64,000 nt of DNA from Deltaproteobacteria bacterium (GTDB lineage: Bacteria; Desulfobacterota; Binatia; UBA9968), in contig VGTH01000025.1 of NCBI GenBank assembly GCA_016874755.1, positions 1-64,000 on the forward strand, given 5' to 3'. A program made the translations under genes and the position numbers. Shown one piece after another: positions 5,157 through 55,361 of this stretch; position 1 is the stretch's first letter, and every line of letters starts with the position of its first letter. The notes below the pieces were generated by a model. That model was not told the origin of the DNA, did no database searches, and was given only the letters and a program-made list of their open reading frames with translations.

Positions 5157-5255
5157 ATGCTTCGACAAGTTCAGCATGAACGGATTTTGACGAGCAGGTT
5201 TTCTGATTCCGTTCGTCCTGAGATCGTCGAAGGACTCCGGACGGGTTTTCGGGAG
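5157..5255. repeat. TTCGACAAG...CTTGTCGAA-type inverted repeat (family A)
   Basis: The gap contains TTCGACAAGTTCAGCATGAA followed 30 nt later by GTTCGTCCTGAGATCGTCGA, an imperfect inverted pair, flanked by a second pair (CCGAAAAAACCCGAAGAA and CGGGTTTTCGGGAGAA). Copies or half-copies recur at 10049-10080, 44527-44552 and 59641-59731. It is a palindromic dispersed element. Confidence 0.7.
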
Positions 5256-5278
5256 AATCGAATACGGAAACTCCAAAA

Positions 5279-7525
5279 ATGAAAAAGAAAATCATCGGCA
5301 CTCCGACAATCCGTTCCGAAGGCCGCGAGAAAGTTTCCGGCACCGCCGTCTACGCAACCGACGTTGTGCTACCCAACATGCTGTGGGCAAAAGCGCTGCG
5401 CAGTCCGATTCCCTACGGCCGCATCAAACGCATCGACACGAGGAGTGCCGCGGTGCTGCCGGGCGTGCATGCGATCGTCACGGGCGCGGACTGTAGGGGC
5501 CAGATTATCGGGCGCAAAATCTATGACATGCCGGTGTTGCCTGACGCAGTCGTGCGTTTCGTCGGTGAGAAGGTGGCCGTGGTCGCGGCGGAGAGCGAAG
5601 AAGTCGCCGAGGCGGCTTGCGAGCTGATCGACGTCGAATATGAGGAGTTGGAACCGTTGCTTGATCCGTTCGCGGCGGCGCAGCCGGACGCGAATTTGCT
5701 CCATCCCAACCTGCAGAGCTATCGCGGCCTTTTGCACGAGATCAAAACGCCGAGCAACGTTTTCGTCGACATGACCTGGACTAAGGGTGACGTCGAAGCG
5801 GGCTTTCGCAGCGCCGACATGGTCGTCGAGAACACTTTTACGACGCAGCCAATGCACCAGGCTTACATCGAGCCGCACTCCTGTGTTGTTGCCATCGATT
5901 CGAAGGGCCGCGCCGATGTCTGGCACTGCTCAAAAGTCCCATTCGCGTTGCGCGAACAAGTGGCCAGCGCGTTCAAGAAAACCACCGAAGATTTTCTCAT
6001 GCGGCCTTGCTACATCGGTGGTTGCTTTGGCGGCAAGGGCGATTTTATGGACGTGCCGGTGTGCTACATGTTGGCACTGAAAAGCGGCCGCCCGGTGAAG
6101 ATGGTGATGGATTATTCAGAGGAGTTTATCGCCGGCAATCCGCGCCATGCGGCCATCGTCAAAGTAAAGACCGGCGTGAAAAAAGACGGCCGCCTCGTCG
6201 CGCACAAGATGGAATACCTCTACGACAGCGGCGCCTATGCGGCGTTCAAGCCGCAGGGATATCTGGTTGGGCCGAAGGAAGCCGCTGGGCCGTATAAGAT
6301 TCCCAACGTCTACGTCAACGAAAAAATCGTCTACACCAACAAAATTCCCTGCGGTCATATGCGCGCGCCGGGCGAGCCGCAGGGCTTTTTCGCCAACGAA
6401 TCCCAAATGACCCAACTGGCGGGCCACTTGGGGATGGATCCGATTGCGTTTCGCAAAATCAATTTGATGCACGATGGCGATACTTTACCGACCGGCCATG
6501 TCGTGCCGCACATTAGGAGCGATGAGACTTTAGCAGTGGCGCTAAACGCATCGGGCTACAACAAACCGAAGCGAAAAAATGTCGGTCGTGGCTTGGCGCT
6601 GGCGCAGTGGCTGCCGCTCGGCGGTGAGGGCCACGCGTTTGTCGAAGTGGACATGGAAGGACACATCACGGTTTCGACCGCGATGGTCGATCAAGGCGCG
6701 GGCACCTACACTTCGATGCGCCAGATTACGGCGAATGAGTTGCAGGTCCCCATCGAAGAAGTAGGGTGTCGGATTCTCGACACCAGCCGGGCTGCGGCTG
6801 ACACTGGCGTGGGGGCGAGCCGGGCGACGCGGATTTTTGGCAACTCGACTCATGGCGCTGCGGTGCAGGTTAAGGAGAGACTCTTGCAGGCTGCGAGCGA
6901 AATGCTTGGCGCGAGCAAGAATGATCTCACTTTGACGGGAAGCGGCGCAGTACGCGGCATTGGCGGCAAGCAGATCTCCTATCGCGAAATCGTGCAAAAA
7001 CTCGGCGCGCCGGTACGCTTCGAGGGTGCTTACAAAAACTTCGAAAACGGTCCCGAAGCCGCCCTGGTCGTGCAAGTGGCGGAAGTGGAGGTCGATGTTG
7101 AAACCGGACAGGTCGTTCTGAAAAATTTCACGACGACGCACAGCACGGGCACGGTGATCAATCCGCTGATGCATCAGGGACAGATCGATGGCGGCGTGGT
7201 GACCGCGATCGGTTATGCGCTGATGGAACAGCTGGTGATCGAACAAGGCAAGGTCGTGACGACCAACTTTGGCGAGAGCAAGATTCCGTCGATTCGTGAC
7301 ATTCCGCCGTTGAAGACCGTCATCGAAGAATTCCCGGTGGGCAATGGACCCTACGGCGGCATGAGCATCGGCGAGCCGCCGGTGCTGGTCGCTGCCGCGG
7401 CGATTGCCAATGCTGTGGAAGATGCGGTGGGCGTACGGATTAGGGATTTGCCGATCACGGCAGAGAAAGTGTTGCACGGCTTACTCACCACGAAGAGCAC
7501 GAAGGACACGACGTTGCCTTCGTGA
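5279..7525 (+). CDS. xanthine dehydrogenase-family Mo-binding large subunit (orphan)
   Basis: A 748-residue molybdenum hydroxylase large subunit with aldehyde oxidase a/b hammerhead domain (about 15-125) and Mo-cofactor domain (about 140-730). Visible landmarks are GGCFGGKGD (about 248), GHMRAPGEPQ (about 362), the Gly-rich MVDQGAGTYT stretch, and MSIGEPPVLVAAAA with the conserved catalytic Glu. It hydroxylates N-heterocycles, aldehydes or aromatic acyl-CoAs in relatives; the substrate is unknown. No FAD or 2Fe-2S subunit is adjacent, unlike the complete set at 43664-47456. The last dozen residues (TTKSTKDTTLPS) are encoded by a dispersed CACGAAG-rich repeat, so the native C-terminus was replaced or extended. 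Confidence 0.9.
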   Translation: MKKKIIGTPTIRSEGREKVSGTAVYATDVVLPNMLWAKALRSPIPYGRIKRIDTRSAAVLPGVHAIVTGADCRGQIIGRKIYDMPVLPDAVVRFVGEKVAVVAAESEEVAEAACELIDVEYEELEPLLDPFAAAQPDANLLHPNLQSYRGLLHEIKTPSNVFVDMTWTKGDVEAGFRSADMVVENTFTTQPMHQAYIEPHSCVVAIDSKGRADVWHCSKVPFALREQVASAFKKTTEDFLMRPCYIGGCFGGKGDFMDVPVCYMLALKSGRPVKMVMDYSEEFIAGNPRHAAIVKVKTGVKKDGRLVAHKMEYLYDSGAYAAFKPQGYLVGPKEAAGPYKIPNVYVNEKIVYTNKIPCGHMRAPGEPQGFFANESQMTQLAGHLGMDPIAFRKINLMHDGDTLPTGHVVPHIRSDETLAVALNASGYNKPKRKNVGRGLALAQWLPLGGEGHAFVEVDMEGHITVSTAMVDQGAGTYTSMRQITANELQVPIEEVGCRILDTSRAAADTGVGASRATRIFGNSTHGAAVQVKERLLQAASEMLGASKNDLTLTGSGAVRGIGGKQISYREIVQKLGAPVRFEGAYKNFENGPEAALVVQVAEVEVDVETGQVVLKNFTTTHSTGTVINPLMHQGQIDGGVVTAIGYALMEQLVIEQGKVVTTNFGESKIPSIRDIPPLKTVIEEFPVGNGPYGGMSIGEPPVLVAAAAIANAVEDAVGVRIRDLPITAEKVLHGLLTTKSTKDTTLPS

Positions 7526-7801
7526 TCTTCGTGCCCTCCTGCGAAAAGAGCATGGTCCGGTTACCGGCAGTGACCGATAGCCCCTTCCGCCGCCTCGGCG
7601 GAAGGTTGGGGTGGGGGGCACACGCTTCAAGACGTCCCCACTCTAACTCTCCCTCGAAAACGTGGGAGAGAACCGAATTTTTATGATCCGTTGGCGTGCG
7701 TCAGCACATGAATCACTTCGTGGTGAATCCTTCCTTTATGACTCGGCTGCACGCCCGCGCCGTTGCTACGCTGCTCCGTACCTGGTAATGCACTCCCATC
7801 T
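7526..7801. other. intergenic region with family-B-like repeat tail
   Basis: The first part continues the CTTCGTGATCTTCGTGCCCTC tract of the repeat that ends the preceding gene. Next comes a short inverted sequence, CTTCCGCCGCCTCGGCGGAAG (about 7586-7606), which may form a hairpin. I see no gene and no clear promoter. Confidence 0.45.
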
Positions 7802-8308
7802 ATGAAAGACGAACTTGCCAAACGGCTCGTCAAGAGTCTCAAAGATGCCGGCATTAACTTTGTCACTTATCTCCCGGAAACTAGGTTGAGTCAGATCATT
7901 CCTCTGATTCGCGACGATCCTGAACTGGAGCTGATCGCCGTCGCCAACGAATCCGAGGCGATCACCATAGCGGCTGGCGCGACGCTGGGCGGCAAGCAGG
8001 CCGCCGTGTACATGGAAAACACCGGTATCTACACGGCCTGCTATCCGTTGGTGACCGTCGGCAATCAGCTCGGCGTGCCGATTCTTTTGGTGATCGCCTA
8101 TCTCGGCGGCGTGCCCGATTGGCGCAACAGTTTTCTCTACGCCACCATCGGGCGTCACTCGATTCCGGTGCTGAACGGTCTTGGTCTGCAGAATCAAGTG
8201 CTCGAAGACGGCGACAAGTTGGAAATCAGAATCAAAGACGCGGTGCGCGCGGCCAACTCGCAGCGCCAGCCCTATGCGCTGCTGTTCGCCGGGGAGTTCT
8301 CCGAATGA
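7802..8308 (+). CDS. ThDP-dependent decarboxylase, alpha (PYR-domain) subunit, ComD-like
   Basis: The 168-residue product is a stand-alone pyrimidine-binding (N-terminal) domain of a thiamine diphosphate enzyme: KRLVKSLKDAGINFVTYLPE and the ANESEAITIAAGATLGGK region with the conserved Glu that activates the cofactor. Split enzymes of this kind include sulfopyruvate decarboxylase (ComD) and phosphonopyruvate decarboxylase. It overlaps the beta subunit gene by ATGA, so the two are translationally coupled. Start ATG 7802 fits the family; the upstream in-frame start adds unrelated residues. Confidence 0.84.
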   Translation: MKDELAKRLVKSLKDAGINFVTYLPETRLSQIIPLIRDDPELELIAVANESEAITIAAGATLGGKQAAVYMENTGIYTACYPLVTVGNQLGVPILLVIAYLGGVPDWRNSFLYATIGRHSIPVLNGLGLQNQVLEDGDKLEIRIKDAVRAANSQRQPYALLFAGEFSE

Positions 8309-8907
8309 TTCGCTACGAATGTTTGCAACTGCTCGCCAGCAAAATGACCAATCAACTGGTCGTGACTTCGCAAAGCGGCCAGCGCATCGAGTGGTCGCAT
8401 CTGTCGAAGCATGAAGGCAACTTGCTGGTGGGCATGATGGGCTGCGCCATTGGCGTGGCCACCGGATTGGCCCTGGCTTTACCGCATCGTAAAGTGATTG
8501 CGTTGGATTCCGATGGCAGCGTGCTGTTGTCGTTGTTCAATTTGGCGACGCTAGGAAACTTGCGGCCAAAGAACTTGGTCGTCTACGTCTTCGACAACGG
8601 CGTCTACAGCGGCAGCCGCATCAGCTATCCGACGGCGACGGCCGGGAATACCGATTTGGCGGTGATGGCTAAAGGCGCCGGTGTCGTTAACGCGCACACG
8701 ATTCGCGATTTCGCAGACTTCAAAACGCAGGGCATCGAAGCGCTGAGTAAAAACGAATTGTCGTTTTTCGTCTGCAAAGTCGAGGAGAGTTTGATGCACC
8801 GTGAGATTCCGCGGCCGGTGACGGATTTGGCGGAGAATAAATATACCTTTGTGCGCTATCTTGAACGGAGCGAGGAGAGAGTGATCCCGTTTGTCGGACG
8901 GGGATGA
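8305..8907 (+). CDS. ThDP-dependent decarboxylase, beta (PP-domain) subunit, ComE-like
   Basis: A 200-residue diphosphate-binding half: the Mg/ThDP signature is ALDSDGSVLLSLFNL followed by LVVYVFDNG, close to the canonical GDGS...N motif though with Asp-Ser-Asp-Gly. It pairs with the alpha subunit through an ATGA overlap at 8305-8308. The complex would decarboxylate a 2-oxo acid, sulfopyruvate or phosphonopyruvate being the best-known substrates of split enzymes; here the substrate is open. A TctC protein follows after 42 nt on the same strand and may deliver the precursor acid. Confidence 0.84.
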   Translation: MIRYECLQLLASKMTNQLVVTSQSGQRIEWSHLSKHEGNLLVGMMGCAIGVATGLALALPHRKVIALDSDGSVLLSLFNLATLGNLRPKNLVVYVFDNGVYSGSRISYPTATAGNTDLAVMAKGAGVVNAHTIRDFADFKTQGIEALSKNELSFFVCKVEESLMHREIPRPVTDLAENKYTFVRYLERSEERVIPFVGRG

Positions 8908-8949
8908 AGAATTGACCGCAAAAAGCGCAAAACGCGCAAAGAGCTGAAT

Positions 8950-9978
8950 ATGAAACTGCGAAATCTCTTTTCCTACGGGCTGCTGATTTTTACTGTCATT
9001 GTCTCAGCATCCGTCGTTCGCGCCCAAGACTACAAGGACAAAACCCTAACCACTATCGTTGGCTACTCCCCCGGCGGCTCGTTCGATCTTTACGCGCGCG
9101 TGCTGGCGCGCTACATCGGCCGCTATCTGCCCGGCAATCCGACGCGCATCGTCGAGAACATGACCGGTGCCGCTGGGATCATCGCGGCGAATCATCTCTA
9201 TAACCGGGTGAAGCCCGATGGGTTAACCATCGGTGCCTGGGCATCGCCGTTGATTCTGCAGCACATCATGGGGAACGAAGCGGTGCAGTTCGATGGGCGC
9301 AAGGTTGGTTATCTGGGTATACCTGCAGAATACGACACGGTCTGTACGTTCAACCAACAGAGCGGGGTCAAGACTTTCGACGATTGGGTGAATGCCAAAC
9401 GGCCGATGAAGCTTTCGACCATCGGTCCGGGGACGAGCACATCGGATGTTCCCAAGCTTTTGAAAGTGGCGCTCAATTTGCCGATGGACGTGATCGATGG
9501 CTACAAGGGCGGCGCCGACGCGCGTTTGGCCGTCGAGTCGGGTGAAGTCGATGGCTATTGCGGTTCCTGGGGAACCGTCGATTCGGTGTGGCGCAGCGCC
9601 TACGAAAGCAAAAAGATCGTGCCCATTGTGCAGGGGATGATGAAACCCAACCCCCGACACAAAGATATTCCGGTGGCGGTCAAGTTTGCCAAAAGCGACG
9701 AAGCGCGCGAGCTGCTCAAGATCGCCGACGATGTCCATATCGCGCAATTTGTTTTCACTGTGCCGCCCGGCATGGCAAAAGACCGATTAGAATTGCTGCA
9801 GCGGGCGTTCATGCGCGCCTTCAAAGACCCGGACCTGCTGGCCGAAGCAACTCGTGCGCAGCTCGAGGTCGCCCCGGTGGACGGCCCGACTGTCACGAGA
9901 ACACTGACGGGTCTTTACGACCTCAAACCGGCGACGGTGGCCAAGCTGAAAGATATTTTGTTGCCCAGAAAGAGATGA
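8950..9978 (+). CDS. TctC/Bug-family tripartite tricarboxylate transporter binding protein
   Basis: A 342-residue periplasmic protein with a clear signal peptide (residues 1-25, ending VVRAQ) and the Bug-fold start TTIVGYSPGGSFDLYARVLA, then PGNPTRIVENMTGAAG and NRVKPDGLTIG. These proteins bind small carboxylates for TctAB-type transporters; no TctA or TctB gene adjoins, which is common for this family. The 42-nt gap upstream contains GACCGCAAAAAGCGCAAA, repeated near 46920. Confidence 0.9.
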   Translation: MKLRNLFSYGLLIFTVIVSASVVRAQDYKDKTLTTIVGYSPGGSFDLYARVLARYIGRYLPGNPTRIVENMTGAAGIIAANHLYNRVKPDGLTIGAWASPLILQHIMGNEAVQFDGRKVGYLGIPAEYDTVCTFNQQSGVKTFDDWVNAKRPMKLSTIGPGTSTSDVPKLLKVALNLPMDVIDGYKGGADARLAVESGEVDGYCGSWGTVDSVWRSAYESKKIVPIVQGMMKPNPRHKDIPVAVKFAKSDEARELLKIADDVHIAQFVFTVPPGMAKDRLELLQRAFMRAFKDPDLLAEATRAQLEVAPVDGPTVTRTLTGLYDLKPATVAKLKDILLPRKR

Positions 9979-52500: not shown

Positions 52501-53790
52501 CTAGTTAACCTTGGTCTCCAACGCCGCCAGGGCTTTTTCCAGCAGCGCCACACGCCAGCGTTTTTCTTCCTCGGGCGGCAATTCCGGTTGTCCCACCGGG
52601 TAGTGAAACTTGTTTCCTGATAGCACGCGGCCGACGCCTACCTGGGCGGCGACGTTGGTTAAGCACGTGACAAGCACCACCGGGATGCCTTGCTTCTCAA
52701 TCTCCTTTGCGATCGTAGCGCCGCTACGAGTGCCGGTCCCTCACGTGGCTGTTAAGATAACAGCATTCACTCCGGAGCTGACTAGCTCACCTGCAATGCC
52801 GGCGCCGAGCTCGGCCATTTTGCTCGGCATGGCGCCGGTGCCGGTGGTGACGTAATATTGGTCGTGCAGTGTTTTGAAGCGCTGCGATTTCTCCAGCGCG
52901 CGCATGGCATCGAGCGGCACGATGCGGTCCGGGTCTTGGTCGACCGTGGAGGTGTCATAGCCGGTGTGCATGGCTTGATACTGCCCGGCTTTGAGATCGT
53001 CTATCCCGGCGACCGAATATTTGAAGTAGCGCGAGCCGCGCGAGCTCTCCAACCGATCCGGATTACCTCTAGGAACTAACCCGCCTTCGGTGACGAGTGC
53101 GATTGTCGCGTCCTTGAGACTGCCGGTGAGATTGGGAACCTTATGCGCTTCGGATTTGAACTGCGGAATCTCACCCTCATAGGGCTGACCGGCGAGTTTG
53201 GCCATCATGACGTCGACGGCGCGCGCGTAATCGGCTTTGTGGGTGCGCACGGTGAAACGGCGCGGAATCGACAGGCAATGCTCGGCACGGAAATCCTCTG
53301 TGGCTTTGTTATCTTTCTTGATTACCAGCTCCAGCAGCGACGAAATCCGCTTGAGAGTCTCCGCCATGGCCGCTGTCGATGCGCCGGTTTGCAGAACGAA
53401 AACCTGCCGGCCGATCTCCTGCGTGCCGGGGTTGCTCTCGTGCATGCCGGTGATGGTTGGAATCTGCCAATAATCGCGCACCCAGCTACAAACTTTGGCG
53501 CAGGCGATGCCGTAGCGGCCGGCGTTGAACGCCGGCCCGGCGATGAAAAAGTCCGGTTTGAATTTGTCGATGGCCGCGCCCATGGCATCTAGGGCAGCGT
53601 TTTCCTGCTCGTGAAAATAGTTGTCGCCGCAGATAAGCGTCGCGTAGTCGACGCCGTGCGCTGGCAGGCTCCTTTCGATCTCCGCACCGATGCCGACGGC
53701 GTGGGGGCGAAACACGACATCCTGGCCGGCCTTGTCTTCGCCGCCGATGCCACCGAAAAACTGATTTAGATAGTGGAGGATTTTTGTCAT
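52501..53790 (-). CDS. GrdB-like reductase selenoprotein (Sec at codon 350)
   Basis: A 429-residue protein of the glycine/sarcosine/betaine reductase component B selenoprotein family: ILHYLNQFFGGIGGEDKAG at the start, DNYFHEQ, FIAGPAFNAGRYG, GMHESNPG and GGLVPRGNPDRLESSRG. Codon 350 is TGA (52741-52743) after AVILTAT. The same frame stays open for 79 codons to TAG at 52501, continuing GTGTRSGATIAKEIEKQGIP as in the family, so TGA most likely encodes selenocysteine. A hairpin follows the TGA. The Cys residues expected soon after Sec (UxxC type) appear to be Gly and Ser here. Start ATG 53790 with AAGGAG. Partner: GrdE-like gene at 54075. Confidence 0.88.
52713..52729 (-). promoter_or_regulatory. 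SECIS-like hairpin downstream of the in-frame TGA
   Basis: Starting 12 nt after the TGA on the minus strand, TCGTAGC-GGC-GCTACGA forms a 7-bp perfect stem with a three-nt loop. Bacterial SECIS elements lie at about this distance inside the coding region and recruit SelB. The loop is shorter than in well-known examples, so the assignment rests on position and symmetry. Confidence 0.55.
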
Positions 53791-53803
53791 CGGCAATTCT
53801 CCT

Positions 53804-54074
53804 TCGGATAGTCGCGCGCAGAGGCGCAGAGTTTCGGAGCAGAAATATTCTCGCGCAAAGGCGCAAGGGACGCCAAGTGCCAGAGACTAAAACTAGTTAA
53901 TCCTCTTTACTCTGCGGTCTCTGCGCCTGTGCGCGAGAATATTCTTGCTCCGAACTTGGTGTCCTTCGTGCCTTCGTGGTGAGTCATTCTTCTCCAAAAC
54001 TCTGCGCCCTCTGCGCTCCTGCGAGAGATTATGCTTATCCGAACTCTGTATTCTCCGCGCCTCTGTGGTGAGTC
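53804..54074. repeat. nested family B repeat cluster between the Grd-like genes
   Basis: The spacer holds at least three tracts of CGCAGAGGCGCAGAG / CTCTGCGCCCTCTGCGCTC type. An inverted pair about 95 nt apart (GGAGCAGAAATATTCTCGCG and CGCGAGAATATTCTTGCTCC) is present, and two direct units (about 53905-53985 and 54000-54074) each end in TGTGGTGAGTC or CGTGGTGAGTC. No gene is seen in it. Confidence 0.75.
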
Positions 54075-55361
54075 CTAGCTCTCATACGCCGCGCGAAAGC
54101 CACTCATGCCCATTTTGCTATAGGAGCCGAAGAAGATCGTCGGGTCGAAGAGAAACGGTTCACGGGCGTCGTGGGTGGCTTTCAAATGCAAATCGATCAG
54201 CGGTCCGCCGATGACCGTTCTTAACGGCGGAATGTAAATTTTCTCCGACACGTTGCCGCGGCTGATCATGCCGTCGGCTTCCTGCGGATGATCGACCAGC
54301 GGCCGCTCGTAGCCTTTCGGCCCGTTGGACTCGTGCAGCACGGCAGCGGTCTTGATGCCCTGATCTTCGCAGGCTTTGACGGTCTGCATGAAGTCGACGG
54401 TGCCGTTGCCGGTGCCTTCCATGAATGCGACGGCGCCTTCCGCGCCAAGATTCTTCGCCAGGCGTGCCACCCACAATCCCATCTTCTTTTTCTGCTCGAG
54501 GCTGTCGTTGTAGCCGCGCGACAGAATCACGCCGCGAAAGTCGAGGGCCTTGCCGTGGCGATTTAGCAGCTCCCAAATGAACAGATTGTCGCAATGCAAT
54601 GAAGTCGGCAGCTTGCGCTCGGTCTTGAAATTGCCGCTGACGATGGCGCCGTCGAAGAATTCGGCCGGATGGACGAAGGTCGGCAGGGTGCGCGAAACTT
54701 CCTCGCCATAGTAAAAAGTGCGCGCGCCCATCACTTGGCTTTGCACTTGATAGATCAAGACGACCTTGGGCAACTTGCCATCTACCGAATTCAACGAAAC
54801 GACGCGGCGCTCTGGCTGGCTGTCGATTTTTCGTGAGGTGGCGATGAACCGCGCGCAGCGGAGTGCCATGAGCCGCAGCGCGTTGTCGAAACCGGCATTA
54901 GAAACAGAAGCGTCGGGTGCTAGCGACAAGACCAGATGAAAGCAATCGGAGCCGTAGGAATAAGGCGCGCCAATGCCGCTCATGTCGAGAATGCCTTCGC
55001 GCTGTTTTTCGATGGGACTGAGGTCTTCAAAGTGAGGGAAACGTCCCGCGACGGTAACAAGCAAGTTCGGAATGCGAACGGTCTGGCCGGTGCCGACCAG
55101 TTCCGCCGCGCCTTCGAAGCCAGGAAAAGTTTCTCCTGTGCCGGAAAGTTTGGCGATCGGCATCACTGTGTCGAGCACGTGGACAATGCGCGTGGCTTCG
55201 CCCGGTCGCACCAATTGAACGTCGATGGGAATGCCGTGGGTGAGGTTTTGAATCTGCTGCTGCAGATCGGCGCGCGACAAGGTCAGCGTATTGCCGTCGA
55301 GCCGTGTGTGCTCGCCCCACTGCAGGGTCTGAATCTTGTAGTCGAGCAGCTCCAGTTCCAT
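54075..55361 (-). CDS. GrdE-like component B proprotein lacking the pyruvoyl Cys
   Basis: A 428-residue protein matching the GrdE/GrdG/GrdI proprotein family over its length: ELLDYKIQTLQWGEHTRLDG, FPGFEGAAELVGTGQT, DMSGIGAPYSYGS, HPAEFFDGAIVSGN, LNRHGKALDFRGVILSRGYN and RTVIGGPLIDLHLKAT. In characterised members the proprotein is cleaved before a Cys that becomes a pyruvoyl group within an SGN-Cys stretch. Here the matching position reads SGN-Phe (Phe245), so self-cleavage and pyruvoyl formation are unlikely, unless another Cys (Cys257) serves. Start ATG 55361 after AAAGGA. It is upstream of the Sec-containing partner on the same strand. Confidence 0.82.
   Translation of the reverse strand: MELELLDYKIQTLQWGEHTRLDGNTLTLSRADLQQQIQNLTHGIPIDVQLVRPGEATRIVHVLDTVMPIAKLSGTGETFPGFEGAAELVGTGQTVRIPNLLVTVAGRFPHFEDLSPIEKQREGILDMSGIGAPYSYGSDCFHLVLSLAPDASVSNAGFDNALRLMALRCARFIATSRKIDSQPERRVVSLNSVDGKLPKVVLIYQVQSQVMGARTFYYGEEVSRTLPTFVHPAEFFDGAIVSGNFKTERKLPTSLHCDNLFIWELLNRHGKALDFRGVILSRGYNDSLEQKKKMGLWVARLAKNLGAEGAVAFMEGTGNGTVDFMQTVKACEDQGIKTAAVLHESNGPKGYERPLVDHPQEADGMISRGNVSEKIYIPPLRTVIGGPLIDLHLKATHDAREPFLFDPTIFFGSYSKMGMSGFRAAYES

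Follow-up and report, generated by a model that had tools for sequence, protein, structure and literature searches.

The window, by which we mean the whole stretch of 64,000 nt analysed here, carries on its minus strand a GrdB-like gene, encoding the beta subunit of a component B (52501..53790). The gene begins with an ATG at 53790 and comprises 429 codons: 349 codons from the ATG, an in-frame TGA as codon 350 (52741..52743, minus strand), and 79 further codons before a TAG at 52503..52501. The numbers of the earlier note all hold; the strand it left unstated. The plus-strand frame over the same interval is closed by several stops. An AAGGAG 8 nt 5′ of the ATG (53799..53804, minus strand), read from the sequence, is the likely ribosome-binding site. 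Directly upstream of the beta gene, and on the same strand, we find a gene for a GrdE/GrdG-like alpha subunit (54075..55361; PF09338, 1.6e-93, and alignments), which lacks the pyruvoyl cysteine pair. A hairpin, CGUAGC-GGC-GCUACG (52714..52728, minus strand), starts 12 nt 3′ of the TGA and is supported by covariation.

With the TGA translated as U, the product is a beta subunit of 429 residues with U350, and its 79-codon tail contains GATIAKEIEKQGIP and LPPEEEKRWR. Pfam GRDB (PF07355) matches residues 2-349 with 361.6 bits (cut-off 22; 6e-108), an alignment that extends to the end of the model, directly before the Sec; NCBIfam TIGR01918 matches residues 3-428 with 372 bits (cut-off 65.45; 4e-111). 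The latter match crosses the TGA and bears out the earlier claim of a GrdB-family frame running on past this codon, and the full-length match places the protein in the GrdB family. The TGA occupies the active-site position of the family: codon 350 aligns with Sec 350 of Clostridium sticklandii GrdB (the Sec of GrdH is at 352; PMC3091704). The likeness to GrdB, GrdF, and GrdH thus comprises full-length homology, the position of the Sec, the upstream alpha gene, and the place of the SECIS. The earlier reading as a GrdB-family protein needs refining in one respect, at the level of the curated types: The window protein scores 327.7 bits against NCBIfam GrdB, 370.5 against GrdF, and 367.8 against GrdH, where 602.2, 800, and 775 are asked; the score on the GrdG model is likewise far under its cut-off; and the two cysteines expected after U are not there. 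Sec in the window beta is by itself ordinary for the GrdB family. Since it is expected in such a protein, reading the TGA in this way amounts to correct annotation rather than to a discovery.

To the eye of a gene caller using table 11, TGA is a stop codon, and the gene would then encode a truncated protein of 349 residues or be a decaying pseudogene. We examined the codon in 110 loci of relatives (the best 80 of 422 matches, from named genomes, 29 from the window's class, and L123, a GrdB-free stretch from the genome that holds the window). The Sec column holds TGA in all 119 GrdB-like frames of these loci. In the first 80 loci it does so in 90 of 90 frames, with no second in-frame TGA within the matched part, and the window gene has no other in-frame TGA either. 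A degraded tail, which the earlier note had proposed looking for in relatives, was not seen: Among the best 80 of the 422 matches, all 80 end at query residue 424-429. Orthologs in four other genomes (75, 74, 72, and 60% identity; three of the loci, L043, L044, and L045, are recorded as Deltaproteobacteria) all have the TGA. Against these four, dN/dS is 0.125-0.135 before the TGA and 0.077-0.108 after it, ratios that are rough given a dS above 1; by this measure the part behind the TGA is under purifying selection.

The AlphaFold2 model of the beta subunit (Cys for Sec) has a mean pLDDT of 90.6 but a pTM of 0.57. Residue 350 comes after a strand (343-347) and just before a helix (351-365), and the part behind the TGA is modelled as two strands and three helices with block-mean pLDDT of 90-98; a product ending at 349 would miss all of them. 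A sequence search of the PDB with alpha and beta gave no match at E 0.01. With the beta model, Foldseek returned 20 matches at E below 0.001, all with TM-scores of about 0.15-0.3; most are sugar-binding proteins of two lobes, a few are glycosyltransferases, and we draw no function from them.

The hairpin behind the TGA consists of a 6-bp stem and a 3-nt loop that is mostly GGN among 126 sequences (the 119 frames, the window, five paralogs, and L153). All six pairs form in 122 of the 126, and five pairs in the other four. Over the 117 distinct sequences, 99.4% of 702 cells are paired. Changes on both sides of a pair occur in 86 cells, compared with a mean of 31 in shuffles (none of 500 as high), a count inflated by the relatedness of the sequences. 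Such changes involve two of the stem pairs, a number equalled or exceeded by 457 of 500 shuffles. Sliding the partners by 1-3 columns lowers the pairing to 9.5 to 68.9%, RNAalifold returns the same helix plus one more pair, and double changes also occur when the six copies in this genome are compared with one another. The five orthologs share 218 columns with an invariant amino acid, of which 36 also show an identical codon throughout, and the sole run of at least three such codons is formed by the five stem codons. The folding energy of the window hairpin is not below that of shuffles (z -0.67); as it is not significant by itself, we used covariation instead. Rfam SECIS_1 has no match in this genome, nor in 14 control genomes, so its absence here is not informative. 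Judged by its place and covariation, the hairpin is a bacterial SECIS, the element required of a bacterial selenoprotein gene.

The source genome (5.56 Mb, 101 contigs, 99.55% complete) also contains the Sec genes that a bacterial selenoprotein requires. The earlier note had set their absence beforehand as refuting its reading, and tRNA-Sec, SelA, SelB, and SelD are all present. One tRNA-Sec exceeds the Rfam cut-off (75.9 bits; cut-off 47) and is called SeC with anticodon TCA by ARAGORN; the profile scores are 411 bits for SelB, 600 for SelA, and 362.5 for SelD. SelD is itself encoded by a selenoprotein gene, with an in-frame TGA within a GUAAK stretch. The genes selA, selB, and selD lie consecutively on one contig (C16; L033, about 5214-9709, minus strand). 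Six GrdB-like genes are found in the genome, and all six have TGA at the same codon.

We conclude that the in-frame TGA is almost certainly read as selenocysteine, as the earlier note held, with the Sec genes, the TGA in 119 of 119 frames, the SECIS, and dN/dS in its support. The table 11 reading as a true stop has a negligible probability against these same observations, to which are added the codon-invariant run in the stem and the well-modelled part behind the TGA. Decoding as another amino acid, such as Trp or Cys under an altered code, we consider just as extremely improbable, having found nothing in its favour: A SECIS-type hairpin with covariation stands behind the codon, the genome has the Sec genes, and neither the window gene nor any of the 90 frames, over their matched part, contains a second in-frame TGA.

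In a FastTree of 123 GrdB sequences, the window groups with three named orthologs (support 98-100), and its deeper placement has support of 2 and 12. GRDB matches occur in 101 of 148 genomes of the window's class and exceed 300 bits in 33. The matches in the other 68 are weaker, 60 bits or less where listed, and mostly cover GRDB positions of about 200-345 in frames of about 150-320 amino acids; they may represent a distinct family of short proteins. A SelA above the cut-off is present in 31 of the 33 genomes with a long GrdB match, in 92 of the 115 others, and in 123 of the 148 overall. SelA is thus common in the class, and its presence alone is weak evidence. The two of the 33 without SelA over the cut-off are G139 and G127, the second being among the genomes with an ortholog of the window gene; both assemblies are in hundreds of contigs, so an assembly gap is possible.

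The genome has seven alpha subunits. In each of the four orthologous loci, the beta ortholog has an alpha ortholog as its neighbour. One of the genome's betas lies at the end of contig C1 (L020, L038), with no space for an upstream alpha, and one of its alphas at the end of contig C9 (L030, L039), with no space for a downstream beta; the two may be one locus split by assembly. At the site of the cysteine pair for the pyruvoyl group, the clostridial alpha subunits read SGNCVSACDKNTT, whereas the window's reads SGNFKTERKLPTSLHC. The pair, which a glycine reductase alpha requires, is absent from seven of seven alphas of this genome and present in the clostridial partners. A cysteine in the motif PTSLHC lies a few residues downstream and is kept in L043, L044, L045, and L110; in principle this cysteine could be processed instead. 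The structure model of alpha has a mean pLDDT of 82.9 and a pTM of 0.88, and Foldseek found no match to it under E 0.001.

The beta subunit shows a corresponding lack. GrdB is described as having a UxxCxxC motif (PMC13188914), whereas the window beta and its four orthologs have UGTGTRSG, without either cysteine. The five paralogs have UGSCSRGG, UGTSTRSG (twice), UGSSTRCG, and UGTCTRSG, and the two cysteines occur together in none of the six betas of this genome. We could compare alpha and beta for 93 of the 119 beta frames (26 have no scorable alpha), using a strict alpha pattern. The alpha has its cysteine pair in 36 of 42 cases where the beta has both cysteines, in four of 24 where it has the second only, in none of one where it has the first only, and in none of 26 where it has neither; these counts are not independent, since many of the frames with neither cysteine are close relatives from the window's class. 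The differences from GrdB, GrdF, and GrdH are the missing cysteines of beta, the missing pair of its partner alpha, and the low scores on the curated models.

Similar losses are described for fluoroacetate reductase of Synergistota, in which FarB has no CxxC after the Sec and FarE lacks the two pyruvoyl cysteines; GrdI of betaine reductase likewise is described as not being a pro-protein (PMC10838667). The window pair could accordingly be a reductive dehalogenase akin to FarBE that acts on fluoroacetate or other small halo-acids, and the FarE model does match the window alpha at 5.6e-33. However, the score of 114.3 bits is far under the curated cut-off of 675, and four other scanned alphas of this genome score higher, at 123 to 230. 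The likeness to FarB is drawn from its published description. Moreover, an antiporter and a radical-SAM gene are described as belonging to the far operon (PMC10838667), whereas the five window neighbours that we annotated are other things. We consider a FarBE-like enzyme quite unlikely.

The genome resembles known glycine reductase systems in components A and C, with a Sec-bearing GrdA and a GrdC side by side on a contig other than the window's. The GrdA selenoprotein that a glycine reductase complex requires is represented by a single gene, with TGA in CFVUTAAGAM (NF040748, 193.9 bits; cut-off 130). One GrdC is found (570 bits; cut-off 450). Component C requires GrdC and GrdD, and the last step to acetyl phosphate is carried out by GrdD. 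No GrdD was found in this genome, the best score being 20.3 of 350 bits. Of 35 further genomes, which we chose from the loci at hand and many of which are drafts, 11 have a GrdD above the cut-off, namely nine Bacillota, one member of the Synergistales, and the delta proteobacterium L048. The other 24 stay under it, 15 with weak scores (about 20-32 bits, as in control genomes) and nine with none. These 24 include ten genomes known to be of the window's class, as well as Rokubacteria, Tectomicrobia, and Acidobacteria.

A quick tree of GrdC from 52 loci and this genome divides into the two sides of a branch with SH-aLRT 100. GrdD is in the locus for 28 of 28 GrdC on one side versus none of 25 on this genome's side, the 25 comprising the window's genome (searched genome-wide), 17 loci with room for GrdD, and seven stretches that end too early to show it; the genomes of two of these seven were searched whole (L163 in G119 and L165 in G123). 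Since the GrdC types form one split of the tree, the link with GrdD counts as one event and not as repeated evidence. Cys252 of GrdC aligns with the FabH cysteine and is kept in 53 of 53 sequences. Residue 367 is Gln in 28 of 28 on the side with GrdD; on this genome's side it is His in 20 of 25, Gln in three, and Glu in two. This residue might be a reason why GrdD is dispensable, an idea that remains a lead, because His421 is common to eight GrdC aligned from both sides.

A locus of Tectomicrobia (L110) has GrdC, GrdA, alpha, and beta in a row; its beta motif is UGTGTRSG, and its GrdC is the nearest to that of this genome (54%). Five other loci, L083, L095, and L102 (Syntrophus and a delta MAG) and L113 and L121 (Nealsonbacteria), have a GrdC that falls on the GrdD-less side of the tree and has Gln or Glu as residue 367, together with alphas that keep the pyruvoyl cysteine pair; they are possible intermediates. 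Among the papers listed from a mostly open-access literature, we found no description of a form lacking GrdD in titles or abstract openings; since most subscription journals are outside this search, the absence of reports argues only weakly for novelty. One published study presents a broad tree of glycine reductases based on GrdB and GrdE, and its main text does not use the words GrdC or GrdD (PMC9751293).

An ordinary glycine, sarcosine, or betaine component B that has drifted would account for some of these features. It would work in the clostridial manner, with acetyl phosphate as the product and a GrdD that has diverged or falls in a gap. The family and the Sec are the same, alpha, GrdA, and GrdC are present, and betaine reductase is named as an enzyme without a pyruvoyl pro-protein (PMC10838667). 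This explanation is nevertheless unlikely in view of scores far under the NCBIfam GrdB, GrdF, GrdH, and GrdG cut-offs and of the distribution of GrdD over the two sides of the GrdC tree, short stretches included.

On balance we think it probable that the window gene encodes the Sec-bearing beta subunit of a component B without pyruvoyl group, a substrate module of a glycine reductase branch that lacks GrdD. In the known enzyme, substrate binding and amine release both take place on component B, and the remaining steps to acetyl phosphate, by way of a carboxymethyl selenoether and an acetyl thioester, fall to components A and C (PMC10298544, PMC13188914). The component B to which the window beta belongs would likewise be specific for its substrate and of the same kind as those of glycine, sarcosine, and betaine reductase. 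Its UGA350 would be decoded by SelB and Sec-tRNA, aided by the downstream hairpin. The adjacent alpha and beta may bind a small carboxylate, the selenolate of Sec350 then attacking the carbon beside the carboxylate and expelling a leaving group. From there the bound group would move to the Sec of the single, common GrdA and finally, in the form of an acyl thioester, to GrdC. The genome has six B components, whereas GrdA and GrdC are each encoded once, on a contig other than the window's; that the window pair feeds into these two we infer.

Because alpha lacks the pyruvoyl cysteines and beta has neither of the two cysteines after U, the substrate is probably not a primary or secondary amine bound through a Schiff base; one with a good leaving group, such as a quaternary amine or a halide, would fit better. 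As GrdD is missing, acyl phosphate is probably not the form in which the acyl group leaves, and acyl-CoA would be the simplest outlet, given that GrdC is related to ketoacyl synthase III. From features read directly in the sequence (the Sec codon, SECIS, Sec genes, alpha, GrdA, GrdC, the lack of a GrdD match, and the missing cysteines) we thus infer the substrate class, the group transfer, and the end product.

A broader suggestion, which we offer tentatively and regard as rather doubtful in its entirety, is that there is a second glycine reductase machine in many uncultured soil and groundwater lineages. It would combine several pyruvoyl-less Sec-containing B modules with one GrdA and a GrdC without GrdD, pass acyl groups to CoA and not to phosphate, and cleave C-N, C-halogen, or similar bonds with the help of selenium, for the assimilation of carbon and not for fermentation. 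Some of the lineages carrying it are perhaps oxygen-using; the present genome encodes a Rieske ring-hydroxylating oxygenase, a hint only that the organism may use oxygen. The variant matters because the textbook glycine reductase is tied to fermentation, a pyruvoyl cofactor, and acetyl phosphate. If our reading is true, selenium-based bond cleavage would extend to more chemistry and more habitats than the clostridial model covers, and a GrdC working alone would need an outlet for its acyl group.

We also considered conserved neighbours as a hint to the substrate. On comparing positions 36001-64000 of the window with the orthologous loci, only alpha and beta (and the shadow frames on their opposite strand) recur side by side, and we set this approach aside. 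Three further frames each match in one orthologous locus, none of them beside the alpha/beta pair. Between the alpha and beta genes (window 53800-53960), words resembling GCGCAAAGGCGCAAG are repeated, and similar words lie behind the stop of the copy on contig C58 (L018).
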